The notes under the pieces were generated by a model, which saw only the letters and a list, made by a program, of their open reading frames with translations, was not told where the DNA came from and ran no database searches. The translations under genes were made by a program, and so were the position numbers. From positions 1 to 60,323 of the forward strand of contig DAOURK010000010.1 of NCBI GenBank assembly GCA_030625085.1: 60,323 nt of DNA, read 5' to 3'. This document shows, one piece after another, positions 12,792 through 42,287 of the stretch. This stretch comes from Pseudomonadota bacterium. GTDB taxonomy: Bacteria > SZUA-182 > DTGQ01. Numbering within the stretch: the first letter of the stretch is position 1; each line of letters starts with the position of its first letter.

Positions 12792-15700
12792 TTAATCCTT
12801 ACTATACAATAAATATCCTTCCCCTTTTTTAATAACAAAATTCTGACCGCACTGCTGGTCAAAAAAATCGTAAACAGATTCCCATTTTCCTGAAAACTTG
12901 TTCAGTTTTTGCATTTTACTCAGATTGTTTACGCCGGGGAGTTTTTTTAATTTTCCAAGGATTTTAAATGAAGAAGATTGTTCCTCATCCTTTACAGGAA
13001 AAGAAATCCAGTGAACAGCCCCTTCCTTTAATTCATAGCCAAGTTGATGTAATATTACCTCCAAGGGGAAATAGTAAGATGTTCTAAAATCTACACAGAG
13101 TTTATCTTCCTGTAAATATAATAAATAGCCTCGATTATCTGCTATGGTAAAAGGGTCAATTACCATATCTGATTGCCAATAAGATATTTGGGTGGGGTTT
13201 TCCTGCCTGAGAGAATGGACTTTTCCCGTAGAATCAATTGCTTTGATTAAATTATCCGACGCTAAATATTCAGGGGGAACCTTCCCTGGGTAACCAAAAA
13301 GGTTTAGCCCTGCTTTTAAATCAATAGTTGTGCATTTTTCAATTTGTAAGGATTTATATTTTTGAATTTTTTTTCTTTCATTACTGAGAAAGGTAAGATC
13401 AAAGAACCCCGAGGGTAATCCTTTTGGAATACGGAACAGGGCAACGTTGGGATCTCGATTCGGATCTTGGAGATCCAAGATTTGATTGGGGTCCGCCGGA
13501 TTGAGAAGAGGAAGGTTTCTAGGGGCGGAATAAATATGGAGCATATCACTTTGTTCCCCAATATAGATCTGGTTTTGAGTAGCTGAAACAGCACTAGTTC
13601 CTCGTGGAATAGCTAAACTGTTTAAAATGATTGGGTATGAAGGGATAGATATATCTATGATCCATATTCCATAACCAGTACCGGCTGCATATAAAAAGTC
13701 ATCCCAAATTGAACACGCTACTAAGTAGTTATCGTTAATAATTTCCATCCTTTCAATAATTTCCGGATCTGTGTTTTCTTCATGTATATTTGTTTTTACT
13801 ACTGTAATGCTGCTATAACTTCCATCTATTAAATAAGCATAATCCCCTTTTACTCCTACATCAACAAAGGTGCGACCAACATTTTTATAAGAATTTTTTA
13901 CTGGAGCTTTAGGCTTGGATACATCGACAATCCCAAAATAGTACGTCCCATCGGCAAGATAGGCGAATACTTTATCTTCGGGATAATGGGGATAATCTTC
14001 TACCCATATATTTTGGTTACTTATTGAGTCCGTAGAGAAGCTTCCAAGCCCATCGGGAAGCTCCAACAGCGATTTAATTCGGAAAATCTCTAGTCCCCGG
14101 GTTCGTCTAAACATATAGAGGCAATTATTATTTATCCTTATTGATTTAATTTTATCAGGAGGAGCATTTGGATCTTTTAGTGGTATTTTGATTTCATTCA
14201 CCCAGGAGGGTTTTTCTTGATTATTGGAATTATCAAATATACATAAAGTGGTCTCATTGGCTAAATATAATCCATTCTCATATAAACAGCAATCCAAAAC
14301 ATTAACAGAATCCTCATAAGGATCCTCTAACATAAGATCTGATTTTTCTAAAGAATAACTAAGGCGAGGGGCCCATGGATCTTGTATATCAACAATTTTT
14401 AACCCTGACTCCCCAGTAGACACATAGGCTTGATTTTCTGAAAGAGTTATGTTCTCAATGTTTCCCTTCAAAGCTAAATGCCCGATAGAGGGATGGTTCA
14501 TCAAGGGTTGAATATCTGCCAAAGCAAAGCCGTTATTGCCATTGGCAATAAAGACATATTTACCCTGGGCAGGTTCAATTTCTATAAACTCCGCCTCTCC
14601 ATTAGTAGAAAGCTGATGCATAAAAGCAGGGGCTGAGGGCAATGAGATATCAATCAAATCCAGGCCATGTTCACCGGCAGCCACCACAGCAAGATTGTTC
14701 CGGATAGTTATTGACTCTCTATCGGCAGCCAAGGGTAGTCGATGTGAAATTGTAGGCACTTGTGGATTTCCCATATCCACCACATAAAGACCATATTGAT
14801 TATCGAGCACATAGAGATATTCATTTTTAACCTTCACGTCACAAATAGAAGAATAATATAAATTATTTGGGTCCTCCTGAAAAAATTTGTTGTTCAAAGG
14901 GCGATTGGGATCGTTCACCCGACTTACTGAATCTCCTTCCCTTTTAAACATAACGACTGAATCACCATTAGCGATATAGAGATATTGTTCTTGAGTAAGA
15001 GGATGAAGCATAATATCCAGATTAAGGGGAGTTGACATACCCGGTATAGGTAATTTAGATTTTTGTTCAAGTTGGCTCCCGTCCCAACTATAAATAAGTA
15101 AACCATCCTCCAAGGAGGTAAGATAAATTGTGTAGATCTCATTCCCCTGAAAATCCGTGTCAGCCTCTACGTAAACTGCCCAAGCTAAGTTCTCAGGTTG
15201 AAGGGCTATATATTCTGGTGATGACGGTTGGGAAATGTTTAATACCCAAAGTCCATTAGGTGTATCAGTAATAAAAAGATAATTGCCTAAGACTTGAATG
15301 TCACGTAGAGTGATTGATTTAATTTCTTGTGTGCTGCTTTGGAATGAATCGAATATGCCGGTTATTTGGGGATTGTTGGGGTCACTTATGTTGATAATTG
15401 AAATTTTGGAGTCATCCGTTATGGCATATACGTATGGATCTTGAAAATCGAGGGCTGTCACTACAGAGTTATTTTCTGTTAATAAGGTACTTTTTATATA
15501 AGGAAGAGACTGGGAAAGAATGATTCGAGAAATCTGATCAAGATTTTCACCTCTCACTTCGATTAAATGATCATCGGTGTTGACTAACTGATTGGGATGC
15601 ACGGTTTGTATGTTAGGTGTAAAATTTTGTGCTTGAACATTTTGACCCCAAAAGGAACAAAAAACAAAAGGGGATAAAGGGGATAATAGAAAGAACAAAA

Positions 15701-15809
15701 AGATAAAAGAGATAAATGGAATCAGTTTAAACGAGATAGTGACTGCGCGTTTTTTTTCAATTTGAGGTGATACCCCATTATAGGATGATACATTAGGCCA
15801 TAATTCCAT
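12792..15809 (-). CDS. Large exported LVIVD-repeat (beta-propeller-like) protein
   Basis: A 1005-aa protein of unknown exact role, probably at the cell surface or secreted. Seen: a long N-terminal region with a hydrophobic segment at about 28-55 (signal peptide or anchor); an IPT/TIG-like opening (HPNQLVNTDDHLIEVRGENL); then many degenerate blades of the LVIVD type, in which short units read xYAYVADGxxGLxIVDIS followed by a proline-rich PxxPxxxxxL (for example SGLKIVDIQDPWAPRLSYSL and GIWIIDISIPSYPIILNSL). From about residue 840 a different C-terminal domain follows, starting IDLKAGLNLFGYPGKVP and ending at a short Gly-rich ENFVIKKGEGYLLYSK-like block. A sigma-54-type promoter lies about 95 bp upstream. 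A scrap of a related gene lies at 16.2 kb. No Shine-Dalgarno is evident before the ATG chosen. Confidence 0.8.
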   Translation of the reverse strand: MELWPNVSSYNGVSPQIEKKRAVTISFKLIPFISFIFLFFLLSPLSPFVFCSFWGQNVQAQNFTPNIQTVHPNQLVNTDDHLIEVRGENLDQISRIILSQSLPYIKSTLLTENNSVVTALDFQDPYVYAITDDSKISIINISDPNNPQITGIFDSFQSSTQEIKSITLRDIQVLGNYLFITDTPNGLWVLNISQPSSPEYIALQPENLAWAVYVEADTDFQGNEIYTIYLTSLEDGLLIYSWDGSQLEQKSKLPIPGMSTPLNLDIMLHPLTQEQYLYIANGDSVVMFKREGDSVSRVNDPNRPLNNKFFQEDPNNLYYSSICDVKVKNEYLYVLDNQYGLYVVDMGNPQVPTISHRLPLAADRESITIRNNLAVVAAGEHGLDLIDISLPSAPAFMHQLSTNGEAEFIEIEPAQGKYVFIANGNNGFALADIQPLMNHPSIGHLALKGNIENITLSENQAYVSTGESGLKIVDIQDPWAPRLSYSLEKSDLMLEDPYEDSVNVLDCCLYENGLYLANETTLCIFDNSNNQEKPSWVNEIKIPLKDPNAPPDKIKSIRINNNCLYMFRRTRGLEIFRIKSLLELPDGLGSFSTDSISNQNIWVEDYPHYPEDKVFAYLADGTYYFGIVDVSKPKAPVKNSYKNVGRTFVDVGVKGDYAYLIDGSYSSITVVKTNIHEENTDPEIIERMEIINDNYLVACSIWDDFLYAAGTGYGIWIIDISIPSYPIILNSLAIPRGTSAVSATQNQIYIGEQSDMLHIYSAPRNLPLLNPADPNQILDLQDPNRDPNVALFRIPKGLPSGFFDLTFLSNERKKIQKYKSLQIEKCTTIDLKAGLNLFGYPGKVPPEYLASDNLIKAIDSTGKVHSLRQENPTQISYWQSDMVIDPFTIADNRGYLLYLQEDKLCVDFRTSYYFPLEVILHQLGYELKEGAVHWISFPVKDEEQSSSFKILGKLKKLPGVNNLSKMQKLNKFSGKWESVYDFFDQQCGQNFVIKKGEGYLLYSKD

Positions 15810-15902: not shown

Positions 15903-15918
15903 ATGCAAAATAAATGCC
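15903..15918 (-). promoter_or_regulatory. Sigma-54-type promoter for the LVIVD-repeat gene
   Basis: On the minus strand the sequence reads AGGCATTTATTTTGCATA, with GG (15918-15917) and GC (15906-15905) exactly 10 bases apart. The GGCATTTATTTTGCAT core is identical, base for base, to the promoter at 35244-35259. The first consensus base (T of TGGCA) is A here. Transcription would start near 15893, about 85 nt before the gene. Confidence 0.6.
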
Positions 15919-15940
15919 TAATGAATACATATGCCTATAT

Positions 15941-16063
15941 ATGACTCCGTTGATTTACTATGATTTTATAAAATTGCCAAAATTGTACTTTAATAAAAAC
16001 ATAATCTTATGAGTGCTCTTTTCGCAAAAAATACACAATTTTGGACTAAATCAACAGAGTCAT
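15941..16063 (-). repeat. MITE-like element, copy 3 (inverted)
   Basis: A 123-bp copy of the element at 983-1106, in the opposite orientation, with ends ATGACTCCGTTGATTTA and TAAATCAACAGAGTCAT. TATA-like bases flank it on both sides. It lies 23 bp upstream of the sigma-54-type promoter of the LVIVD gene, so it separates that promoter from any original upstream activator sites. Confidence 0.85.
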
Positions 16064-16143
16064 ATATGAGATAAAAAAATATATAAAGCTCTAAAATAAC
16101 TAGCCCTTTAGCTTCTCAGCGCAAATACATGCAATGGAATTAG

Positions 16144-16210: not shown

Positions 16211-16428
16211 CATAAAGGTACAAAGAATACCAAGGGATGAAAACTATAGTGATATAAAAAATTAATTCCTTTCTTTATGTTTTTTTGTGCTTTAAAATAT
16301 ATCAATCCCTGATTGATAAGTCGGCATAGGGGCTGAAAGGTTAAGTAATTAGTTAACTCCGAGGGAGGAATGAAAAAGGTATGAATTTTATTTCCTACGT
16401 ATGCAATAAAATACATAAAATTAAAAAG

Positions 16429-17428: not shown

Positions 17429-19511
17429 AACTGATCTCCTCATTTTGTAAATACCTTTCGTTCCGAAATCGATCTTTCAATTCTCCTTTCTTGCCCTTAT
17501 TCCAACTGGAAATTTTCGTAAAATAACCGGTAATTCGAGTAATCCCATCAACGTTGGTGGAACCACAATGGGGGCAGGAATCTTTTAACCCCCTGCTCGT
17601 GCGGCTGCAATTATTGCAACTGGTAAATTCCGGTGAAAAGGCAATTTGGTCATTGAGGGTCTTTTGAAAGGTTTTGATAACAAAACTAGCTAGGGATTCT
17701 TTAAAGGGTTTAGCCTCTCCCAACCAGATGTGTGTTAAGGCGCCGGCCTCAATCAAGGGATGAAAGAGACCTTCCTGTCTAACTCGTTCTATGGGGTTGA
17801 TAGGAGCCTGAACATCAAAATAACTGGAATTGGTGTAGTAGATTTCTCCCTGAGTCTTGTCTCCTTTAACAATTTGTTCAGCTTGCTGACCATAATCTTT
17901 TAAATCTAACTTAGCAAATCGATAACTAGTGCTTTCAGCAGGGGTTTGCTCAAGCACAAATTTCATTTTATGCTTCTTGGATAGTCGGTCAGCCAGAAGT
18001 TTTATATGAGAGATGATTTTGAGACCTAACATGAAAGCCTCTTTAGATTCATGCATTTCCTGGCCATGTTGGATCTTTACCAATTCATTTAATCCCACCA
18101 TGCCTATCAGATGAGAAGCACGCTCCAGCTTCAGATATGACCGGCCATCCTGATTCATAGTGAGCAAAGAAAGTGGGCCGGTTTCCCCTAAGGCCAATAA
18201 TTTTTCAATAAAGACTCGTTTTTGCATATGCGCTTCTGCAGAGATCTCCATCAAATCCGTTAATCGCTCAAAAAGTTTAGCGTTATCTCCCTTTACTTGA
18301 TAGCCAATTCGGGGAAGGTTGAGCGTAATATTTTGAAGCGCACAATATCTCATTTTCCAGGGCTTTTTGGCGTCCTCTAAATCTTGGTCCTCCAGTTTAA
18401 AGCTTAAACGGCAGCACTCGGAAATTTTGGCCGTATCTCCCCGATCAAAGACAAAATATGTATTACCTTTATCTGCCGCTACTTGACAAATATGATGGAG
18501 GAATTCTTGATGCCCGGGGGTACGGAAAAATTTTTCCGTAATATGAACCAAAGGCTTGGGAAAGAAAAAGGGCCTTCCTGCACCATCACCTTCCATATAG
18601 ACATCGAAAAGAGCCCAAACAAATTTTTGCGCTTCCTCCCTGTATTCTCCATAGGTTTTTCCTGTATAAGTTCCACCGGGCCCAATAGCCGGAACCTTTT
18701 CAAAATGATTTGGAACTTCCCAATAGAGGTTGATATCACTAAAGATAGCTTGCCCCCCTCGGGCTACAGCTTGCTGGGAAAATTCAAAAATCATGATCTG
18801 GGCCAATTGCTTCATCTCTCGCTCAGACATTCCCACCAGATAAGGCGCAAAAAAGAGATTGACTGCATCCCAGCCAATGGCTCCGGCGAAATGTCCTTGC
18901 AGGGCAGCAGCAAATTTTACCATATGAGCTAATAAAACCTCGGGATGTTTGGCTGGCTTAGCCATGGATAAAGCATTGGGAAGATTCAGACCAAATTTTT
19001 TGACATACTCTAATGATTGGCCTGAGCAATATGGGCGATCACAAAAACCTAAATCGTGAATATGAATATCCCCCCTCATATGAGCATCGGCCACTTCCTG
19101 TGAAAAAAGAGCTAATAAAGCATATTCTTTTTTAATATTTTCTGCCAAGGTCAGATTAGTTGCTTCAGGCCCATGGGGCACATTGGCATTCTCTTTATTT
19201 GGGTGTAAAATTAATTGATTAACATCATACAGCGGCATACCCAAACGAGTATGCATCCAGCGTGCTTTTTCCAGTCCTTGCTCTATAAGTTTGGCATCAA
19301 CCAATTCTCGAATTAAGGGAGCGGTAATAGTTTTAAGATTTGAGGAAATAATTTGACTTTCTACTTCTTTACTGATTCGGATGGCCGTATTTTCATCTAT
19401 ATCCGTTTCGAGTACAAGAGCGTCTACAATTTTTTTTCTATCCCAATTGCTTAAATCTTCTGCGGAAGTCCGAACAAAAAGGGCCATATCAGTCGTTTCT
19501 AAAACATTCAT
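17421..19511 (-). CDS. nrdD: Anaerobic (class III) ribonucleoside-triphosphate reductase
   Basis: NrdD makes deoxynucleotides under anoxia by a glycyl-radical mechanism. Seen in 696 aa: an N-terminal ATP-cone (residues about 8-90), allosteric site for ATP/dATP; the barrel domain; a C-terminal zinc site CNNC...CPHC; and the glycyl-radical segment RITGYF, Gly662. The start at 19511 (MNVLETTD) is chosen because GGAGAGG lies 7 bases upstream; an 11-residue longer start is less likely. It is the first gene of nrdD-thioredoxin-like-nrdG. A paired NrdR box overlaps its promoter. It is the only reductase in the window. Confidence 0.96.
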   Translation of the reverse strand: MNVLETTDMALFVRTSAEDLSNWDRKKIVDALVLETDIDENTAIRISKEVESQIISSNLKTITAPLIRELVDAKLIEQGLEKARWMHTRLGMPLYDVNQLILHPNKENANVPHGPEATNLTLAENIKKEYALLALFSQEVADAHMRGDIHIHDLGFCDRPYCSGQSLEYVKKFGLNLPNALSMAKPAKHPEVLLAHMVKFAAALQGHFAGAIGWDAVNLFFAPYLVGMSEREMKQLAQIMIFEFSQQAVARGGQAIFSDINLYWEVPNHFEKVPAIGPGGTYTGKTYGEYREEAQKFVWALFDVYMEGDGAGRPFFFPKPLVHITEKFFRTPGHQEFLHHICQVAADKGNTYFVFDRGDTAKISECCRLSFKLEDQDLEDAKKPWKMRYCALQNITLNLPRIGYQVKGDNAKLFERLTDLMEISAEAHMQKRVFIEKLLALGETGPLSLLTMNQDGRSYLKLERASHLIGMVGLNELVKIQHGQEMHESKEAFMLGLKIISHIKLLADRLSKKHKMKFVLEQTPAESTSYRFAKLDLKDYGQQAEQIVKGDKTQGEIYYTNSSYFDVQAPINPIERVRQEGLFHPLIEAGALTHIWLGEAKPFKESLASFVIKTFQKTLNDQIAFSPEFTSCNNCSRTSRGLKDSCPHCGSTNVDGITRITGYFTKISSWNKGKKGELKDRFRNERYLQNEEISYE

Positions 19512-21494
<1,983 letters not shown>

Positions 21495-29951: not shown

Positions 29952-31697
29952 ATGTATCATCGAAGAATGAAGAATAAGGTTGATATCTTTTTGTTATGTA
30001 TTATTTTTTGCCTATTTCTTATTCATTATTTTCCGGTATGTGGACAGGCAGAGAATTATCCATCTGATTTCTACGAATCATTGAGAATTGATACTAAGAT
30101 CCAAATGATAGAGAGAAGAAGAGGTTCACTTAAATTTAACCTTAACACCAATATAAGCTCTATTTTACCAGATTTGTTTTTGCCTTTAGGGCATTCACCA
30201 GAGATGTTATCTTCAATGGACACTGTATTTGTCCAAAAATTCATCTTAATAGGCAATACTGTATTTTCCTCTCAAGAACTGGCCAAGGTCACCAGGCCTT
30301 ATGAAAATAGAGAAATCAGCTTTGAGGAGTTGCAGGACCTTAGGCGCACGTTAACCCTTTATTACGTAAATAAAGGGTATATTAATTCAGGTGTCATTAT
30401 TCCGGATCAAACCGTGGTCAATGGAGTTATTAGCCTTCGTATAATTGAGGGACGATTGACTCAAATAGAGATCGAAGGTACCAGACATTTTCGTCTGAAC
30501 TATATAAACAGAAGACTGGCCTTGGCTGCAGGCCCCCCGATTAATATCATGAGCTTAAGCCAGGTACTGCAGCGATTACAAAATGATCCTCGCATTAAAC
30601 GACTTAATGCGGAATTCAAGCCGGGGTTTAGTCTGGGTGAAAGTATGCTAAAAGTCAGGATTGAAGAAAACAATCCTTATGAGATTTGGTTGAAGGTCGG
30701 CAACGGGCAGTCACCCAGCGTTGGGGCTATAAAAGGAGAATTACAGTTAGCCCACCAGAATTTGACGAGAAATGGTGACAGCTTGCAAACTAAATTTGGA
30801 ATAACCGAGGGACTGAATGATATTGATATCAGTTATTCATTTCCTGTTACTGCACGTGATGCATCCTTAAAATTAGACTTCAGGGAAAATAACAGTACCG
30901 TCATTGAAGATATTTTTAAATCCTTGGATATTGAAAGTAAGTCAAGAACTTATGCGGTTACCCTGAGTCGTCCTTTCTACCGAAACTCTGGGCAGGCATT
31001 TTTTTTAGCGATTACTGCTGAGCTCAGTCACAGCGAAACTTATTTGTTGGGACGCCCCTTCGCCTTTTCTTCCGGATCGGAGGATGGCCGAACTGATGGG
31101 ACTGTCTTGAGTTTTTCCCAGCAGTGGCTCGATCGTAGTCAAATAAAGGTAATGGCAGTAAATTCCAATTTCAAGGTGGGCATTGATGCCCTTGGCGCAA
31201 CAATAAATGAATCGGGCGTGGACGGTAAATTTTTTTCCTGGCTGGGGCAAATCCAGTATGTGAGGCGGTTAAAGTTTATACATAGTCAAATAGTATTTCG
31301 GACAGATATACAATTAACCAACGATCTACTTTTGCCCCTTGAGAAATTAGCCATTGGAGGAATGAACAGTGTGCGGGGTTATCGCCAAAACTTATTTGTA
31401 AGAGACAATGGTATAGTGACTTCTCTAGAGTTTCGAATGCCTTTGATTGGTAATAATCTCAAGGAGGATTTTTTTCAACTGGCTCCGTTTGTTGATTTTG
31501 GCAGATCGTGGAATACAAACAACAATACCCCTGAGCCCAAATCCATTTCAAGTATAGGATTAGGTCTTTTGTGGGCAATCACTAAAAAGATTAATCTTCA
31601 GGTATATGGCGGTCTTTCCTTGCGAAACGTGGAAACTATAGGTAAAGACCTCCAGGATCAAGGATTTCATTTTCAATTAATAGGCCGTTTATTGTGA
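29952..31697 (+). CDS. Two-partner secretion transporter TpsB (ShlB/FhaC type)
   Basis: An outer-membrane beta-barrel that exports its partner TpsA. Seen in 581 aa: a signal peptide (about 1-32, ending CGQAEN); two POTRA-like domains (about 95-250: VQKFILIGNTVFSSQEL, and RIIEGRLTQIEIEGTRHFR); then the barrel (about 260-581), with the VRGYRQN loop motif (the conserved VRGY of Omp85/TpsB proteins) and a final beta strand ending in a short hydrophobic QLIGRLL. The gene is 15 bp upstream of the matching exoprotein gene, the classical tpsB-tpsA order. Confidence 0.93.
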   Translation: MYHRRMKNKVDIFLLCIIFCLFLIHYFPVCGQAENYPSDFYESLRIDTKIQMIERRRGSLKFNLNTNISSILPDLFLPLGHSPEMLSSMDTVFVQKFILIGNTVFSSQELAKVTRPYENREISFEELQDLRRTLTLYYVNKGYINSGVIIPDQTVVNGVISLRIIEGRLTQIEIEGTRHFRLNYINRRLALAAGPPINIMSLSQVLQRLQNDPRIKRLNAEFKPGFSLGESMLKVRIEENNPYEIWLKVGNGQSPSVGAIKGELQLAHQNLTRNGDSLQTKFGITEGLNDIDISYSFPVTARDASLKLDFRENNSTVIEDIFKSLDIESKSRTYAVTLSRPFYRNSGQAFFLAITAELSHSETYLLGRPFAFSSGSEDGRTDGTVLSFSQQWLDRSQIKVMAVNSNFKVGIDALGATINESGVDGKFFSWLGQIQYVRRLKFIHSQIVFRTDIQLTNDLLLPLEKLAIGGMNSVRGYRQNLFVRDNGIVTSLEFRMPLIGNNLKEDFFQLAPFVDFGRSWNTNNNTPEPKSISSIGLGLLWAITKKINLQVYGGLSLRNVETIGKDLQDQGFHFQLIGRLL

Positions 31698-31712
31698 GAA
31701 AGGACGAAAAAG

Positions 31713-34325
31713 ATGTCCATTAAACATTATCATACACTTTATCAATATCTTATTATTGTCTTTGGAGTAATATTGCTTCAAAGTATCTTTTTTTCATTTA
31801 GCCAAGGGGAGATAACCCTTGATGGTACATTAGGCGAAAGGGGCTCACTTGTCGGGCCTCATTATGGTATATCTGCTGATATGGGACATCAAGAGGGGAA
31901 TAATTTATTTCATAGCTTTGGTCAATTTACCCTTAATAGGTATGAAAGTGCCACCTTTACCGGCCCCGCTATGGTGGAAAATATTATCGGGCGAGTAACG
32001 GGGGGAACAGCCTCCTGGATTGATGGTGTTTTACGTTCAAATATCCAAGGGGCCAATTTATACCTACTCAATCCCAGTGGAATCATATTTGGTCCAAATG
32101 CCTGTCTTGATTTAACCGGGTCGTTTCATGTAAGTACGTCAGATTATATTAATCTTGGCCATAGCGGTCGATTTGATGCCACCCAGCCAAATAATAGTTT
32201 ATTGACTGCAGATTCTCCCTCTGCCTTTGGGTTTTTGGGAGACAATCCATCTGACATTTCTATCCAAGGAAGCTTTCTCCAGTCCCCCGATGGAGAGACA
32301 ATATCCATAGTGGGAGGCAATTTAGAGTTAAAGGAGGAAAGTGTTCTTTTGTCGCCCAATGGCCGAATAAATATTGTCAGTGTTGAGTCTGCCGGCGAAG
32401 CTGTTTTTACAGGCGGGAGTGTAGAGGTAGATTCTTTTGACCTACTGGGAGATATTAGTGTTTCGGGAGAGTCATACATCTCTAGTAGCGGTGAAGGTGG
32501 AGGGGCAGTATTCATCCGGGGCGGCCGTTTCGTGCTCGATCATTCGTATATATGGGCTGACACCTTGGGAGATATCGATGGAGGAGCTATTGATATTTAT
32601 TTGAAGAAGGATTTAGTTGTTACTGGGGGAATATCTGCATCTACCTACAAAGGGGGATGTGGAGGAGATATTATCTTAAAGGTGGAGGGTTTAGATATAA
32701 TAGATGGTGGAGTAATTGAAGCTTCCACTTTTAGCACAGGTCAAGGCGGGGATTTGAAGATCACGGCAAAAGATTCTCTCTTGATTTCCGGCCCCGGCAG
32801 TAAGATTTACAGCTTAGTAAGTGATAGCGGAAATGCCGGCAACATCGATTTAACGGCCCAAACCTTGACTATTAGTAATGAAGGTATGATGTCTGGCGCT
32901 ACCAATGGAGAAGGGCGAGGAGCAGGTATTATTTTAAAGGTGGAAAGCTTGGAATTAACTAATGGAGGGATGATTGACACTTCTACTTTTGCCGCTGGAC
33001 AGGGAGGAAAGGTTATGATTTCGGCCGCGGAGTCGGTATTAATTTCCAACCAGGCCGGGAAACAAGATGATGATCTTATCACAGGGATTACCAGTATTGC
33101 TTCCGGCACCTCTAAGTCTGGAAGTATAGAAATTTCAACCCCTAGCCTGACGGTCGCTAATGACGGATTAATAAGTGTTGAAACGCGTGGTGAGGGAGAG
33201 GGAGGAGAAATCGAGTTGAAGGTGGGAGATTTATTCCTAACAGATGGTTATATCTTAGCTAGTAGCAGCGGGATGGGCCATGGAGGAACGGTGACGGTTG
33301 AGGCAACAGGATCAGTGTCCATCTCAGGATCTAAGGCGGCTCTTTCCAGTTGTGCTTTTCGTGAAGGTGATGGAGGTTTTATTTCTCTTTCCACACCAAT
33401 TTTAAAAGTGAGTGATGGGGGAGGGATAAGGGCGGCTACTTTGGAGGAGGGAGCGGCAGGAGACATTATCTTGAGAGTAGGCAATTTAACTTTGGCAGAT
33501 AAAGGCTATATCACTACAAATAGTATTGGTAAAGGTGCCGGGGGCAAATTGACGGTCAGCGCCACAGAAACAGTATCTATTTTTGGCCAAAAAAACGATG
33601 GTTTTGGCAGCGGCTTTTTTAGTGAGGCGACCAGCGGCGGAGCTGCGGGAAGTATATTACTTAAAACATGTGTCCTTAAAATAACTGATGGAGGACAAAT
33701 AAATGCTTCCACGTTGGCAGAAGGAGTGGGGGGCGATATAGAAGTAGAAGCTGATCAAATTTACTTAAGTAATGAAGCCCGGATTGAGGCGGCTAGTACC
33801 GGTAATGGTGATGCAGGGGATATTGTTATTAAGGCAGGTGACATGATTTATGGTGATCATGCCTCAGTGGCCACCGAGGCTATAAAGGCAGATGGAGGTA
33901 ATATTCGAATTGATACGCAAAACCTGAGCTGTCTAACCGATAGCGATATTACCGCCACGGTTAAGGGAGCAATGGGTGACGGCGGCAATATTGAAATGAA
34001 TAGCAAGTTTGTCGTTTTAAATAGAAGCAATATTATAGCAAAGGCAGAGGGAGGTAATGGGGGAAGAATTGTTATTGTTTCGGATGTTTTTCTGTCCACG
34101 CCGGATAGTATTGTCAGCGCCTCCTCGCGTCTTGGTATAGACGGCACTGTAGAAATTTTTTCTCCTATGGTAGATGTTAGCAGTGGTTTGGTTTCTTTGC
34201 CTGAATCATTTCTGAAAGCTGATGATCTTCTTCCGAAACGCTGTGCAGAAAAAGATGAGGCAAGCAGTTTTCATATTATCGAGCATGAAGGATCGGCTCC
34301 AGACCCGGACAGTCTATTATATTAA
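31713..34325 (+). CDS. Two-partner secretion exoprotein TpsA (filamentous hemagglutinin-type)
   Basis: A secreted beta-helix protein of 870 aa, exported by the adjacent TpsB. Seen: a signal peptide (1-31), the TPS domain (about 35-160) with NLFHSFGQF and NPSGIIFGPNA, the recognition motifs of this family; then a long beta-helix of about 100-residue, Gly/Ser-rich repeats (motif GxGGxIxLKVxxLxLTDGGxIxAST) spanning about 260-790; and a Cys-containing C-terminal tail (RCAEKDEASSF) with the SSF signature common at the end of such proteins. No toxin module is visible, so it is more likely an adhesin or surface structure than a contact-inhibition toxin. Confidence 0.9.
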   Translation: MSIKHYHTLYQYLIIVFGVILLQSIFFSFSQGEITLDGTLGERGSLVGPHYGISADMGHQEGNNLFHSFGQFTLNRYESATFTGPAMVENIIGRVTGGTASWIDGVLRSNIQGANLYLLNPSGIIFGPNACLDLTGSFHVSTSDYINLGHSGRFDATQPNNSLLTADSPSAFGFLGDNPSDISIQGSFLQSPDGETISIVGGNLELKEESVLLSPNGRINIVSVESAGEAVFTGGSVEVDSFDLLGDISVSGESYISSSGEGGGAVFIRGGRFVLDHSYIWADTLGDIDGGAIDIYLKKDLVVTGGISASTYKGGCGGDIILKVEGLDIIDGGVIEASTFSTGQGGDLKITAKDSLLISGPGSKIYSLVSDSGNAGNIDLTAQTLTISNEGMMSGATNGEGRGAGIILKVESLELTNGGMIDTSTFAAGQGGKVMISAAESVLISNQAGKQDDDLITGITSIASGTSKSGSIEISTPSLTVANDGLISVETRGEGEGGEIELKVGDLFLTDGYILASSSGMGHGGTVTVEATGSVSISGSKAALSSCAFREGDGGFISLSTPILKVSDGGGIRAATLEEGAAGDIILRVGNLTLADKGYITTNSIGKGAGGKLTVSATETVSIFGQKNDGFGSGFFSEATSGGAAGSILLKTCVLKITDGGQINASTLAEGVGGDIEVEADQIYLSNEARIEAASTGNGDAGDIVIKAGDMIYGDHASVATEAIKADGGNIRIDTQNLSCLTDSDITATVKGAMGDGGNIEMNSKFVVLNRSNIIAKAEGGNGGRIVIVSDVFLSTPDSIVSASSRLGIDGTVEIFSPMVDVSSGLVSLPESFLKADDLLPKRCAEKDEASSFHIIEHEGSAPDPDSLLY

Positions 34326-34507: not shown

Positions 34508-35137
34508 TTAATTCATGATTGAACAATAGATGGTGTTGTTCTCACTGCCCTTAGAACAATTCAACATGTGGGCAGCATTTTTGATTAATTCATCAATTAC
34601 GCGCGCATCTGTAGGGTAAGAGGTGATTCCAATACTGACCGAGTTGCCTTTTTCGATATTATTTATTTCACCACTGGAAAAAGCAAATAATATTTGATCC
34701 TTTAATCGTTCAGATAAACAGACAGCACCTTCAACACTTGTTTCCGGCAAAATTAAAGCTAAAACATCTTGGTTATATAAAGAAAGTATATCCGTATCGC
34801 GAAGATTAGCCTTGATAAATTCACCCAATTTTTTTATAAGTACATTTTTTCTTTCATCGGGAATATCAGTCATATCATTTTCCATCACCTTATCTTCTGC
34901 AAAAGTATCTACATTGAGTAAAACCAATGAAAGAAATTGGTTATACCGTTTAGCTCTTTTCATTTCCTCATCAAGGCGGATGTTCAGATATCGAGTGTTA
35001 TAGAGTCGTATGTTTTCATCGAAGAAGACGTCATTCGGTGGATTATCATCCGGTTTTTTTAAAGAATTGTTGGTGATATTATTAAGTTTTAATTTCAATT
35101 TTGCGTTCTCTTTTTTCAAGAGATCAAATTCGCTCAT
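34508..35137 (-). CDS. Degenerate GGDEF-domain protein
   Basis: A 209-aa protein with a GGDEF fold but a broken active site. Seen: residues 1-20 form a coiled-coil start; the domain runs from about 43 to 205, with the conserved DENIRLYNTRYLNIRLDEEMKRA opening and VSIGITSYPTDA near the end. The signature YGGDEF position reads YNQDVL (residues 121-126), so guanylate-cyclase activity should be lost; the metal-site Asp of the LLNVDTF strand (D77) is kept. It could bind c-di-GMP or a protein partner instead. A sigma-54-type promoter with upstream palindromes stands in front of it. Confidence 0.85.
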   Translation of the reverse strand: MSEFDLLKKENAKLKLKLNNITNNSLKKPDDNPPNDVFFDENIRLYNTRYLNIRLDEEMKRAKRYNQFLSLVLLNVDTFAEDKVMENDMTDIPDERKNVLIKKLGEFIKANLRDTDILSLYNQDVLALILPETSVEGAVCLSERLKDQILFAFSSGEINNIEKGNSVSIGITSYPTDARVIDELIKNAAHMLNCSKGSENNTIYCSIMN

Positions 35138-35243: not shown

Positions 35244-35259
35244 TGCAAAATAAATGCCA
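35244..35259 (-). promoter_or_regulatory. Sigma-54-type (-24/-12) promoter for the degenerate GGDEF gene
   Basis: On the minus strand TGGCATTTATTTTGCA fits the TGGCA-N6-TTGC pattern with the GG/GC elements exactly 10 bases apart. Transcription would begin near 35233, about 95 nt before the GGDEF gene. The 16 bases GGCATTTATTTTGCAT recur in front of the LVIVD gene at 15.9 kb. Confidence 0.7.
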
Positions 35260-35376
35260 TTTTTTTTCTATTAATTCTTTTTTTTTAAAAACTATAGCAA
35301 CTTTTTGATTTAACGCAAAAAAAAGAAGATGTTTTTTTTTTCTACTTTGAGATGAGAAAAATAGAAATTATTTAAA

Positions 35377-35412
35377 ATGAAGGTTCCTTCATAATTATGA
35401 AAGTAATTTCAT
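35377..35412. promoter_or_regulatory. Tandem 16-bp palindromes, probable activator-binding sites
   Basis: ATGAAGGTTCCTTCAT (35377-35392) and ATGAAAGTAATTTCAT (35397-35412). Both are inverted repeats of ATGAAR...YTTCAT; their centres are 20 bp apart, two turns of DNA, on the same face. They lie about 120-155 bp upstream of the sigma-54 promoter at 35244 and directly after the stop codon of the NtrC-type activator gene. Binding by that activator is the natural inference. Confidence 0.65.
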
Positions 35413-35414
35413 AG

Positions 35415-36788
35415 TTATTCTCGAATCTGATATTCTTTAATCTTGCTTAATAAAGATCGATAACTTACCTGAAGTAATTTGGCAGCCTGGATTCGATTCC
35501 AATTGGTCTTACCCAAAACACTTTTGATAGTGGCTTTTTCCGCTTTTTGAACAGCCAGGCGGCTAACTTCTTTTAAGGGAACAATTTTGGTATTTTTATA
35601 AACTACTTTTCCCCCTACAACATCATGGGGGATAACAGTATAGACAATTTCCTCATTTCCAAGGACGATAATTTTTTTTATGAGATTTTCCAACTCACGA
35701 ATATTTCCGGGCCAATCATAATTCATAAAAAGATTAATGGTCTGAGGAGAAATTGAGGTAACGTTTTTCCCATACAAATTGGTATACTTTTTTAAAAAAA
35801 ATTCATTTAAAAGAAAGATATCTTCTTTATGTTCCCGTAAAGGGGGTACGAAGATGGTTACTTCATTTAATCGATAAAATAGATCTTCCCGGAAGCTGCC
35901 ATTACGAATTCCTTCTTCCAGATCTCGGTTAGTGGCTACAATAATACGCACATCAACCTTTACACTTTTTTTCCCGCCAAGACGGTTGAATTCTTTTTCT
36001 TCTAAAACCTGCAATAATTTGGCTTGCAGGGAAGGCGGCATCTCGCCGATTTCGTCTAAAAAAATGGTCCCTTCATTAGCAAATTCAAAACGTCCTGGCT
36101 TTGCCCTTTGGGCGCCGGTAAAAGCTCCTCTTTCATACCCAAAGAGTTCGGACTCAAGAAGATTTTCGGGCAAGGTAGCACAATTGACCTTTATGAACGG
36201 TTTATCTTTTCGATCGGCCAGGTTGTGGATAGCTCGAGTAACCAGTTCTTTTCCCGTACCACTTTCTCCCCGCACTAAAATTGTTAGTTCTGTACCGGCC
36301 ACTTGCTCTATCATTTTTTTTATATTGAGAATCTGGTTGCTGTCTCCTATAAAATTTCCAAATTCGAGTTTAGCCTTTAGTTTTTTCTTGAGTGGCATAT
36401 TGTCAGAGGTAATAGCCATACGTTCCAGATTTTTCTTGATAGTGGCTTTTAATTCTTCTTTATCAAATGGCTTGGTAACAAAGTCATCAGCTCCGGCTCG
36501 CATAGCATTAACTATTGTTTGGGTTTCACCATGAGCAGAAAGCATAATAATGCCTATTCGTTTTGAGATGACCTTCATTCTTCCTAATAGATCGATTCCA
36601 TTGATGTCAGGCATACCAATATCCAGCAATATTAAATCAGGATGGTCATTTTTTAATATTTCTACGGCTGTTTTTCCATCCTCAGCTGAAAAGACACTAT
36701 ACCCGGCGTCAGATATTGTCTCGGTTAGTATCCAAGATAATTCCGGATCATCATCAACCAACAAAATTTTTATTTTATTCCCCTTCAT
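35415..36788 (-). CDS. NtrC-family sigma-54-dependent response regulator
   Basis: A 457-aa enhancer-binding transcription activator. Seen: receiver domain 1-120 with the phospho-acceptor Asp56 (LLDIGMP) and the acidic pocket VDDDPE; sigma-54-interaction AAA+ domain about 145-380, with Walker A GESGTGKE (174-181), the GAFTGA sigma-54 contact loop (221-226) and Walker B TIFLDEIG; and a Fis-type helix-turn-helix at the C-terminus (NWNRIQAAKLLQVSYRSL). The kinase gene lies 71 bp upstream on the same strand. Palindromes that fit its dimer follow the stop codon, so it probably controls the adjacent GGDEF gene. Confidence 0.95.
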   Translation of the reverse strand: MKGNKIKILLVDDDPELSWILTETISDAGYSVFSAEDGKTAVEILKNDHPDLILLDIGMPDINGIDLLGRMKVISKRIGIIMLSAHGETQTIVNAMRAGADDFVTKPFDKEELKATIKKNLERMAITSDNMPLKKKLKAKLEFGNFIGDSNQILNIKKMIEQVAGTELTILVRGESGTGKELVTRAIHNLADRKDKPFIKVNCATLPENLLESELFGYERGAFTGAQRAKPGRFEFANEGTIFLDEIGEMPPSLQAKLLQVLEEKEFNRLGGKKSVKVDVRIIVATNRDLEEGIRNGSFREDLFYRLNEVTIFVPPLREHKEDIFLLNEFFLKKYTNLYGKNVTSISPQTINLFMNYDWPGNIRELENLIKKIIVLGNEEIVYTVIPHDVVGGKVVYKNTKIVPLKEVSRLAVQKAEKATIKSVLGKTNWNRIQAAKLLQVSYRSLLSKIKEYQIRE

Positions 36789-36859
36789 AGATTTAAATCA
36801 CCTATATACTTTCCTTAGAAATCCTTATTTTAACAAAATATTCTTAATTCATTATTTTT

Positions 36860-38140
36860 TTACTGAACAGGAATATATAATTCAAAAGTAGTCCCTTTAT
36901 TTACTTCACCATGAATCTTGATACGGCCGTTATGAGATTGAATTATTCTCTTAACAGTGGCTAATCCTAGACCTGTCCCGGATTTTTTAGTGGTATAAAA
37001 ATGTTCGAACATCTTTTTTTTGACCTTTGTAGAGATACCAATTCCCGTATCACAAAATTTTATTAGTATATAATCTTTTTTCGTATCTTTTGGAGAAGAA
37101 AAATTTTTCGTTAAAATTTTTAGTTCTCCTCCCTGGGGCATGGACTCAATAGCATTGGTAATAATATTTAAAAAGACCTCTTCGATTCGTTTTTCGTTAA
37201 TATAAACAGGTGTCAGATCCTGGGCCAATTCACAAATTAAAGAAATATTATTCTGGTATAGATCATTTTTTAAAAATGTTAATGCCTGATCCAAGATGTT
37301 GTTTACACCAACTATTTTATTTTGGGATCCAATTGGATTAGAGAAACTTAATAGTTCTTCCATCCGAAAAATTAACCGAGAGACGTTGTTGTTTAAGATT
37401 TCAAGAGACCTTTTTCGAGAATTATCTTTATCCCAATTGTCTTCCAGATATTGTAAGGATCCTTTGATGTTGGTGATCGGATTTCGAAAACTATGGGTAA
37501 TTTCAGAAATCATTTTGCCCATGGTGATTAATTGAGTAGCTTTGGAGAGACAAGAAGTCTTTTCATATAAAGAGATTATCTCTGAGGCAAGAGTTGATAG
37601 AAATTGCCATTTTTCTTGAAAAATATTTTTGATGCCACTTCCAAAACAAAAAATTCCAAATAATTCATTTTCCATAATTATAGGTATAGATTGGAATGAT
37701 TCACAAGCGAGATCGCCAAATTCATTGCCTTTGAAATAGGTAAGCAGGAACTTGGTAAAATAACCCCTTATTTTTTTTTCGGTAGCTTCCTTGATAAACT
37801 CATTGTTGGTGTCTTCGAGAGAAATATTACATAAATTAAGCTTTTTTAGTGTCTTGTGGGTAACCCCTTGAGCAAATTCCAGGTGTAGTTCTCGAACTTC
37901 ACTATGAAAGGATAAATACAAGAAATAATCGATAGGAACACCCTGTTTTATGAAGCGTAAAGCTTCATTCAGTGCTTCATCCACATCAATCTGTGAACCA
38001 AAAATTCGGGCAATTTTATATAAAACCGATAGTTCTTTGGCTTTAGACTGCAGTTCTTCGTTTTTTTGCTGTAATTCCGGAATATAGTGTTTATTTATAC
38101 TACCCGGGTTTTTTTGTTCGGTGGTTTTTTTTAACGCCAA
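36860..38140 (-). CDS. Soluble GAF-domain sensor histidine kinase
   Basis: The cognate kinase of the downstream NtrC-type regulator. Seen in 426 aa: an N-terminal coiled coil (PELQQKNEELQSKAKEL), a GAF domain at about 45-190, HisKA with His216 in ITHSFRNPITN, and a HATPase domain with DTGIGIS and GTGLGLATV. There is no membrane segment, so the signal is cytoplasmic. I chose the TTG start at 38140 because GGAGGAAGG stands 8 bases before it; a TTG five codons upstream lies inside that Shine-Dalgarno. Confidence 0.9.
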   Translation of the reverse strand: MALKKTTEQKNPGSINKHYIPELQQKNEELQSKAKELSVLYKIARIFGSQIDVDEALNEALRFIKQGVPIDYFLYLSFHSEVRELHLEFAQGVTHKTLKKLNLCNISLEDTNNEFIKEATEKKIRGYFTKFLLTYFKGNEFGDLACESFQSIPIIMENELFGIFCFGSGIKNIFQEKWQFLSTLASEIISLYEKTSCLSKATQLITMGKMISEITHSFRNPITNIKGSLQYLEDNWDKDNSRKRSLEILNNNVSRLIFRMEELLSFSNPIGSQNKIVGVNNILDQALTFLKNDLYQNNISLICELAQDLTPVYINEKRIEEVFLNIITNAIESMPQGGELKILTKNFSSPKDTKKDYILIKFCDTGIGISTKVKKKMFEHFYTTKKSGTGLGLATVKRIIQSHNGRIKIHGEVNKGTTFELYIPVQ

Positions 38141-38568
38141 ACGGCCTTCCTCCAATGGCTAATATTTTGTCAACATGCAATTACTCGAAAAATTTGAAAG
38201 CATGATGAACTGAACTTAAAAAAGCAACTAATACCTATTTAACCTTCTTTAGAGTTTATTGAGGCGATTTTTTTAAATGACTAGTAGATTTCTGTTTGCT
38301 GCTGATTATGAGAATATTTTCCATTCTCTCTTCTTTATGTATGCGAATGTGACAAAATTTACCTACCTGCAAAAATATACAAACTTTTTTCTATTCTAAT
38401 CAAAACTTTGCTTTTTGTCAAGGTCTTATAACTCTTTATCTTTTCTATCGGTAAAAATCGTTGAGAGAATCAGTGTATTCATGCAATAATTTAAAGCTAA
38501 AGAGGCTTTTCTTCAATTGCTTGGGCAGGGAAGAGTATACAAAATGAATGTTTTTAACTAGGATATTA
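38141..38568. other. Intergenic region between kinase and PBP4 genes
   Basis: About 430 bases holding the sigma-70 promoter at 38393-38421 and its long leader. A small hairpin GAGAAT/ATTCTC lies near 38310-38328. No coding region, tRNA or RNA structure is recognised in the rest. Confidence 0.45.
38393..38421 (-). promoter_or_regulatory. Sigma-70-type promoter for the kinase-regulator operon
   Basis: On the minus strand TTGACA (38421-38416) and TAGAAT (38398-38393) are 17 bp apart. The start would be near 38386, giving a leader of about 245 nt before the kinase gene. The kinase and regulator are therefore probably made constitutively while their target uses sigma-54. Confidence 0.65.
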
Positions 38569-40497: not shown

Positions 40498-41295
40498 ATG
40501 ATAGGAAAACAAATTCGTATGGAACGGATCATGAATCGGAAATCTAAAAAGACCGTTATTGTTCCCATGGATCATGGTATAACCTTGGGCCCGATTCGAG
40601 GCCTGATAGATATAAAAAAATCTGTGAATGCTGTGGCTGCCGGCGGGGCTAATGCCATTATCATTCATAAGGGGGTGGTAGAATCAGGCCATCGAGGAGG
40701 GGGTATAGATGTTGGATTAATTGTTCATCTTTCAGCTAGTACTGTTCTGTCTCCAGATCCTAATGCTAAGGTTTTGGTTTGTACTGTAGAAGAGGCTATT
40801 CGTTTTGGGGCCGATGCCATATCCATCCATATTAATATTGGTTCAGACGATGAAAAATCCATGCTGAGGGACCTGGGGAATATTGCTAAAAAGACCCGAG
40901 ATTGGGGAATGCCCTTAATAGCTATGATGTATACCAGAGGCCTAAAAGTAAAAAATGAATACGCCCCGGAGGTAGTGAAACATGCTGCTCGAATTGGGGC
41001 TGAGCTGGGAGCCGATATTGTTAAGGTAGCTTACACCGGCAGTGCAGAGACTTTTCGTGATGTGGTTGATGGATGTTTTGTCCCTGTAGTCATTGCCGGA
41101 GGAGAGAAAATGGAAACTGATCGACAGGTACTGGAAATGGTTCAAGGTTCTCTGGACGCGGGGGGGGCAGGAGTATCCATTGGAAGAAATGCCTTTCAAC
41201 ATCATAAACCCGAAATGATTGTTAGGGCCATCAGCAATATGGTTCATAATGGCTGCTCTATAGAAGAAGGGCTTAAATTATTGGAGGCAGATTGA
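40498..41295 (+). CDS. 2-amino-3,7-dideoxy-D-threo-hept-6-ulosonate synthase (ADH synthase), archaeal type
   Basis: This class I aldolase (like MJ0400 of Methanocaldococcus) makes the amino-sugar precursor that feeds DHQ synthase II in a shikimate route that bypasses DAHP synthase. Seen in 265 aa: [18 protein letters not shown] near the N-terminus, [11 protein letters not shown] and the Schiff-base Lys in DIVKVAYTG, and VIAGGEK with GASIGRN-like VSIGRNAFQ for phosphate binding. LsrF-type aldolases are similar, but the adjacent DHQ synthase II gene, overlapping by 4 bp, decides the function. Confidence 0.92.
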
Positions 41296-42287
41296 TGAAA
41301 AAGGTTTGGGTCAAGGCTATTCCCTGGAATAAATCGGTGGTGACCACTGCTCTTGAAAATGGTGCTGAGGCGGTCATGGTGGCCCCGGAAGATACGGAAA
41401 AAGTCAAGCAGTTGGGATTGATTAAAACCATCAGTCCCAATGGGGACCTTAGATTGGGTAAAGATGTAGTAGAGCATGAAATTAAGGGGAAAAAGGATGA
41501 GCAGGAAATTGTCAAACTTTCCCGAAACAAAATGGTGATCGTCCGAACACAGGATTGGACAATTATTCCCTTGGAGAATTTAATCGCTCAAACTGAAGGA
41601 TTAATTGCTGAGGTTACCAATAGCCGGGAAGCTGAAACCGCTTTAGGCATTTTAGAAAAAGGAGTAGATGGGGTTTTGATTAATTCCCCAGATCCACTCG
41701 AGGTAAAGAGAGTCATTGAGGTAACCAGGAATATTCGCCAAAGGGTATCCTTAAAAACCGCTAAGATTTTAAAGGTTGAGGCTACCGGTATGGGGGACCG
41801 GGTTTGTATTGATACATGTACACACATGACTCAGGGGCAGGGAATGTTAGTGGGTAACAGCAGCAGTGCTCTATTTCTTGTTCATGCGGAAACCGTTGTT
41901 AACCCTTATGTAGCACCTCGTCCTTTCCGTGTAAACGCCGGGCCCATTCATGCATATACCCTTCTTCCGGACGGAAAGACAAAATACCTTTCAGAGCTTA
42001 GGTCCGGAGATCCTGTTTTACTTATTGATTACCGGGGAAATTCGGAGAAGGCTATTGTGGGAAGAGTTAAGGTTGAAAAACGTCCTCTTTTATATATAGA
42101 AGCTAAGTTGGGTGAAAAGGTTTTAACCACTATTTTACAAAATGCTGAAACAGTTCGACTCACCCAGCCCAAGGGAAGCCCCATATCTGTGGTGGCTTTG
42201 CACCCCGGGTCAGAGGTTTTAGTTTATATTGAAGAGGCAGGTCGTCATTTTGGCATGAAAATCGAAGAAACTATAGTTGAAAAATAG
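41292..42287 (+). CDS. 3-dehydroquinate synthase II, archaeal type
   Basis: DHQ synthase II (like MJ1249) converts ADH to 3-dehydroquinate with NAD. Seen in 331 aa: the [20 protein letters not shown] opening, [15 protein letters not shown], and [15 protein letters not shown], all typical of this family, with the [13 protein letters not shown] block in the middle. The gene starts within the end of the ADH synthase gene. Aromatic amino acids therefore appear to be made from aspartate-semialdehyde and a ketose phosphate. No other aro gene is in the window. Confidence 0.95.

Follow-up and report, generated by a model that had tools for sequence, protein, structure and literature searches.

A predicted sigma-54 regulon for the exterior of the cell, resembling those of AtoC and PrsR, and its probable local target, a degenerate GGDEF gene

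Introduction

A locus at which a sensor kinase, an NtrC-type activator, a pair of palindromes, a sigma-54 promoter and a gene for a degenerate GGDEF protein follow one another raises the question whether these parts constitute a private circuit, as implied by an earlier note on this DNA which had called them "self-contained", or whether they belong to a wider regulatory system. In the current work this question is addressed for a stretch of 60,323 nucleotides (the window) from the 4.94 Mb genome of a Pseudomonadota bacterium (G000), which was compared with three relatives of the same family (G001, G002 and G003), genome-wide statements being based on pattern searches and on retrieved stretches of the genomes. 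The reading that we consider likely is that of a sigma-54 regulon which resembles the AtoC and PrsR systems and serves the exterior of the cell, the GGDEF gene being its local target. Such a system is ordinary in kind and interesting in extent, and for a lineage that is uncultured it provides a regulon of surface proteins that can be tested and whose operator is defined.

Layout and conservation of the locus

All parts of the locus are read from the minus strand, in the order sigma-70 promoter, kinase gene, activator gene, two palindromes, -24/-12 promoter and GGDEF gene, and the coordinates that the earlier note had given for them were found to be correct when re-checked in the sequence. The sigma-70 type promoter of kinase and activator (TTGACA-17-TAGAAT, 38393..38421; top scan match, 11/12) is followed by the open reading frame of a soluble sensor histidine kinase (36860..38140; Pfam HisKA 6e-9 and HATPase_c 1.5e-23), which starts with a TTG codon at 38140 preceded by GGAGG, and by the gene of an NtrC-family activator (35415..36788; Pfam Response_reg 6e-33, Sigma54_activat 3.8e-72 and HTH_8 2.2e-8). 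The activator combines a receiver, an AAA+ domain with GAFTGA and Walker A, and a Fis-type HTH, these being the domains of a sigma-54-dependent NtrC-family activator (bEBP). The tandem operator (35376..35413) consists of the palindromes ATGAAGGTTCCTTCAT (35377-35392) and ATGAAAGTAATTTCAT (35397-35412), whose centres are 20 bp apart, and the conserved dyad, refined to 18 bp, has the general sequence TATGMA-N6-TKCATA. The sigma-54 -24/-12 element TGGCATTTATTTTGCA (35244..35259; 15.7 bits of a maximum of 20.1) lies at a distance of 136 bp to the midpoint of the palindrome pair and is followed by the gene of the degenerate GGDEF protein (34508..35137), which encodes 209 aa with an N-terminal coil (Pfam GGDEF 2.9e-16).

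Within the window the pattern ATGAAR-N4-YTTCAT has two matches, as compared to 0.05 expected, and two matches were obtained in 0 of 100 shuffles; the tandem operator pattern was likewise found in none of 100 shuffles. The -24/-12 promoter is not significant by pattern alone (three matches in the window versus 2.0 expected, with one mismatch allowed), and is considered credible because it is conserved across the four genomes. In an alignment of the four intergenic regions, invariant columns account for 27/38 positions of the operator and 15/16 of the sigma-54 promoter, as opposed to 39/211 in the rest of the spacer. Activator and GGDEF gene follow each other in the same way in G001-G003, where the activator orthologues are 82-84% identical and those of the GGDEF protein 71-74% identical. 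The earlier note had named the retention of the palindromes near activator orthologues and the presence of a sigma-54 gene as checks on its proposal: the palindromes are kept in 4/4 genomes, and one copy of rpoN (Sigma54_DBD 6e-60) was found in the window genome. The enhancer-type operator pair and the -24/-12 promoter ahead of the GGDEF gene, as originally described, are therefore present and kept in all four genomes, and the same applies to the sigma-70 promoter attributed to kinase and activator as their own, which in G002 now stands directly ahead of the activator gene.

The operator across the genomes

Searches for the tandem operator were performed with a pattern in which three mismatches were allowed, with the reversed pattern as control. 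The four activator-bearing genomes yielded 10, 9, 3 and 6 operator places, respectively (28 in total; control 0), and at 24 of these 28 a correctly oriented sigma-54 element scoring 13 bits or more lies 68-299 bp downstream, the background in the same stretches being 8 elements in 298 kb. At this local background rate the association of operator and promoter has a binomial P of ~1e-47, a value that is uncorrected for orthology between places, although the effect itself holds irrespective of such a correction. In the looser single-dyad set, only 12 of 40 loci carry a strong sigma-54 element downstream, as compared to 4 found elsewhere in 118 kb. Five of the 20 strict sigma-54 promoters of G000 are accompanied by an operator (scores of 30-33), and because the other 15 score below 8, the operator is taken to mark one regulator and not all sigma-54 promoters.

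An export-type hydrophobic segment, called by a simple hydrophobicity rule at the protein start and not by SignalP, is present in 11 of the 12 distinct tandem-operator targets versus 8 of 42 window genes (P 8e-6), the sole non-exported target being the product of the local GGDEF gene, and in 9 of the 10 members of the second (single-dyad) target set. The targets comprise PEP-CTERM, cohesin-dockerin, LVIVD, CarboxypepD_reg, NHL and multihaem cytochrome genes, and the second set includes a Poly_export/SLBB polysaccharide export protein; five target-gene groups are common to different genera, with protein identities of 32-73%. Because the same operator precedes dozens of further genes, nearly all of them for exported proteins, we favour an exterior regulon over a one-gene circuit, and the control site probably governs the cell exterior rather than one neighbouring gene.

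One further tandem operator is located in the window itself (16380..16417, minus strand; two mismatches, 0/100 shuffles), upstream of the gene of an exported LVIVD-repeat protein of 1005 aa (12792..15809, minus strand; LVIVD 4.4e-37), a predicted member of the regulon that shares 40-41% identity with two of its targets, G001:C162 and G003:C24. Its probable -24/-12 element AGGCATTTATTTTGCA (15904..15919, minus strand), which has one mismatch to TGGCAYN5TTGCA, lies ~480 bp from the centre of the operator; the orthologues of this gene in G001 and G003 have the operator 175-181 bp ahead of perfect -24/-12 elements. Between operator and promoter, at 15937-16067, a 21-nt inverted repeat is found (95% complementary, 89 nt between the arms), and this looks like a small inserted element which widens the spacing to ~480 bp.

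Two narrower readings of the locus can be weighed against these data. The first of them, in which kinase and activator control the GGDEF gene only, draws on gene order and spacing and has become very unlikely, given that the operator also stands ahead of many unlinked sigma-54 promoters and that the kinase is missing in G002. To take the palindromes as a repressor site, or as the terminator at which transcription of the activator gene ends, would accord with their being inverted repeats directly 3' of its stop codon; however, they are A+T-rich, have no G+C stem and receive no terminator call, while unlinked genes show the same pair with the same 20-bp phase and spacing to -24/-12 elements, and this explanation is accordingly left with a negligible probability. 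Of the interpretation given in the earlier note, the layout of operator and promoter is thus retained, and the private one-gene circuit is corrected to a regulon.

Some sigma-54 promoters and dyad-like sequences fall outside this set. Four strict sigma-54 promoters of G000 that have no tandem operator (C98:53328, C101:9682, C207:45190 and C209:5519, corresponding to L133, L134, L142 and L143) precede exported Gly/Tyr-rich repeat proteins, the one on C98 having a single dyad, which suggests further activators with exterior targets. An identical dyad-like sequence, TATGAATACGGCTGCACA, is found near three contig ends of the same genome (C18:72, C68:72 and C105:47) and is probably a repeat element at assembly breaks.

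Which activator reads the operator

As judged from conservation and distribution, the local activator is the likely owner of the operator. In 4/4 genomes the operator immediately follows the gene of this activator, which is where the own target of an activator is usually situated. Single dyads have 47, 62, 25 and 53 matches in the four activator-bearing genomes (controls 3, 1, 1 and 2), as compared to 4, 0, 0, 3 and 0 in G004-G008 (controls 0, 1, 2, 1 and 0), five genomes from which an activator orthologue is absent according to the orthologue search; this restriction of the enrichment to genomes that have the local activator counts for its ownership of the operator. An assignment by likeness to the HTH of AtoC was rejected: the local HTH is not especially near that of AtoC, being no nearer to it than are those of several paralogues. 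As to the number of candidates, the full-length activator used as query gave 127 matches, a figure inflated by receiver-only proteins, and Pfam PF00158 gave 38, of which ~29 are bona fide activators by inspection.

A rather improbable alternative is that the operator belongs to a receiver-less activator, here named bEBP-2 (G000:C17, about 18962-20014; locus L246, also L244, L245 and L247), which would drive the genes of the exported proteins as well as its own, with the GGDEF gene as one of its targets and the neighbouring activator acting elsewhere. Before the bEBP-2 gene, the dyads are present between -185 and -265, and a sigma-54 element between -48 and -75, in 4/4 genomes; moreover, G004, which is without the local activator, contains bEBP-2 (69%) with one dyad ahead of its gene, and has one tandem match (L123, G004:C26:5173) that is followed at 143 bp by a sigma-54-like element. 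Yet with the same recognition helix (GIDRRNLGYF) G004 has only those 4 single dyads versus 25-62 elsewhere, and the constant position of the operator behind the local activator gene also speaks against this alternative. From sequence, bEBP-2 is best read as a downstream target, and as the probable second tier of a cascade. Less probable still is a reading of the operator by another family-restricted activator, or by several jointly. Six other sigma-54 activators of G000 (L144, L154, L161, L165, L167 and L168) share the phyletic pattern of the local activator, having recognisable counterparts in G001 and G002 but none in G004, and the L165 orthologue adjoins one operator-bearing gene in G001 and G003; however, L165 is without an adjoining operator in G000 and G002, and among the bEBP regions scanned in G000, G001, G002 and G004 a tandem operator was found beside the local activator only, the best score of the other regions being 10.4 bits versus 27-42 for real operators. 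Ownership by the local activator is considered likely. The protein encoded behind L123 in G004 is exported-looking.

Loss of the kinase

In G001 and G003 the kinase is a protein of ~540 aa, in which a receiver-like N-terminal region is followed by a GAF-like-kinase part, and these orthologues are 51-54% identical to the kinase of the window. The latter is a shortened form from which the N-terminal receiver domain has been lost; a tblastn search with the receiver region of G003 as query retrieved a vestige of this domain in the present 5' leader (38271..38342, minus strand; 24 aa, 41.7%, E 7e-4), in whose alignment the ATG and the first codons are the same. At the G002 locus no kinase is present, the carboxypeptidase gene being separated from the activator gene by 484 bp of non-coding DNA. 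Across the G002 genome the best match to the kinase is 30% identical, in the catalytic part only. Full, truncated and absent forms make up a graded series that points to erosion of the kinase in this lineage. Despite the loss, G002 keeps the activator, the operators, the promoter and the GGDEF gene, and because the kinase is gone while the other parts stay, the circuit is not self-contained: on this point the earlier claim fails, the kinase being cut down in G000 and absent in G002, and the operator being found at many unlinked sigma-54 promoters as well. The kinase-loss series, beside a kept activator and target, represents a natural case for studying how NtrC-type regulators outlive their partners.

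The degenerate GGDEF protein

Degenerate GGDEF proteins that act as c-di-GMP receptors form a class in which the catalytic motif has been lost and the RxxD motif kept. In the alignment of the four orthologues the catalytic GGDEF motif is replaced by N-x-x-V-L in 4/4, and the first metal-binding Asp position, by comparison with diguanylate cyclases of known structure, is not conserved; the local protein therefore lacks both the GGDEF/GGEEF motif and the metal-binding Asp by which a diguanylate cyclase is recognised, and its product is predicted to be unable to make c-di-GMP. An RxxD motif (RDTD, residues 113-116), invariant in 4/4 and situated five residues before the GGDEF position, aligns to the RxxD of PDB 6d9m and has the sequence of an I-site. 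Since the product keeps this inhibitory-site motif it may read c-di-GMP, and the protein is a possible c-di-GMP receptor. The Foldseek matches of its structure model are GGDEF domains; the model is of low confidence (mean pLDDT 59) and was used for the fold only. The local protein resembles the receptor class in its lost catalytic motif and kept RxxD, and differs from it in being a stand-alone protein of 209 aa with a short coil, for which c-di-GMP binding is a prediction.

Comparison with known systems

The order kinase, activator, operator pair, sigma-54 promoter and target is that of the AtoS-AtoC system of E. coli (atoS-atoC-sites-sigma-54 element-atoD), where the verified AtoC sites are the two dyads TATGCA-N6-TGCACA and TGCGCA-N6-TGCATA (PMC3118216), and a tandem operator of this verified type lies between activator and target at the local locus. 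When the matrix derived from the present genomes was applied to E. coli atoC-atoD, the verified AtoC sites were the top two matches (15.9 and 11.4 bits), the next scoring 2.4, a likeness which suggests that operator predictions may be transferred between distant activators. The local activator is 42% identical to AtoC, which is its best NCBIfam match, but its score with NF008469 (471.5 of 714 bits) is below the cut-off; the same is true of the local kinase with the AtoS model NF008468 (206 of 646 bits), and this kinase is without a membrane part. Unlike the atoDAEB operon, the local target is a degenerate GGDEF gene and not one for acetoacetate CoA-transferase (atoDA), and the local regulon is a large one of exported proteins, not of short-chain fatty acid genes.

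For the NtrC-like regulator of the PrsK-PrsR system, an upstream motif and a sigma-54 element have been described before many exported, exopolysaccharide-linked genes with long intergenic regions (PMC1569441), and here too a single activator is associated with a common motif and a sigma-54 element ahead of many exported-protein genes, likewise with long intergenic regions. Membership was rejected for PrsR (TIGR02915, 411.3 of 502.6 bits) as well as PrsK (TIGR02916, 91.3 of 300 bits); in addition, PEP-CTERM was found in only one Pfam-tested target, and the PrsR motif is described around TTTACA, whereas the local motif is TATGMA. By analogy, the local system would work like the AtoC/PrsR systems, although membership in either fails at the curated cut-offs. 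It also resembles the sigma-54 regulomes of Desulfovibrio vulgaris, with many activators each having its own dyad and regulon (PMC4641369), and the link that sigma-54 has in general to the exterior of bacteria (PMC3162934), as exterior functions are dominant. The pairing of this dyad with this regulon, and the local lineage, were not found described in the literature searched.

Proposed mechanism

From the observed sequence elements, their conservation, the association of operator with promoter and the nature of the targets, the following course of events can be proposed, the mechanistic steps being deduced from the families involved. The sigma-70 promoter would express kinase and activator, and the activator would be phosphorylated by the local kinase where this survives, or else by another donor. 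The phosphorylated activator would then bind the tandem 18-bp dyads on the same face of the helix, reach, by looping, the sigma-54 polymerase on -24/-12 promoters at distances of 70-300 bp, and open these by ATP hydrolysis. One target would be the adjacent degenerate GGDEF gene, whose product may bind c-di-GMP, while the unlinked targets would provide exported and surface proteins and the polysaccharide export protein. A broader evolutionary scenario, which taken as a whole we regard as doubtful, is that very distant bacteria have retained a DNA box of the AtoC type together with the locus layout, whereas the regulon, once concerned with the catabolism of short-chain fatty acids, now serves the cell exterior; if the kinase is being lost in this lineage while activator, operators and regulon persist, the signal of the activator must come from elsewhere, possibly via the GGDEF protein under its own control, as a reader of c-di-GMP.

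Neighbouring genes

Convergent with the GGDEF gene, a two-partner secretion pair (an Omp85/TpsB-like protein and a protein with a filamentous-haemagglutinin N-terminal domain) occupies 29952-34325; it was rejected as a part of the system, as the relatives examined do not have it next to the circuit. At 40498-42287, two genes look, by eye, like an archaeal-type early shikimate pathway, with an aldolase-type synthase and a dehydroquinate synthase II.
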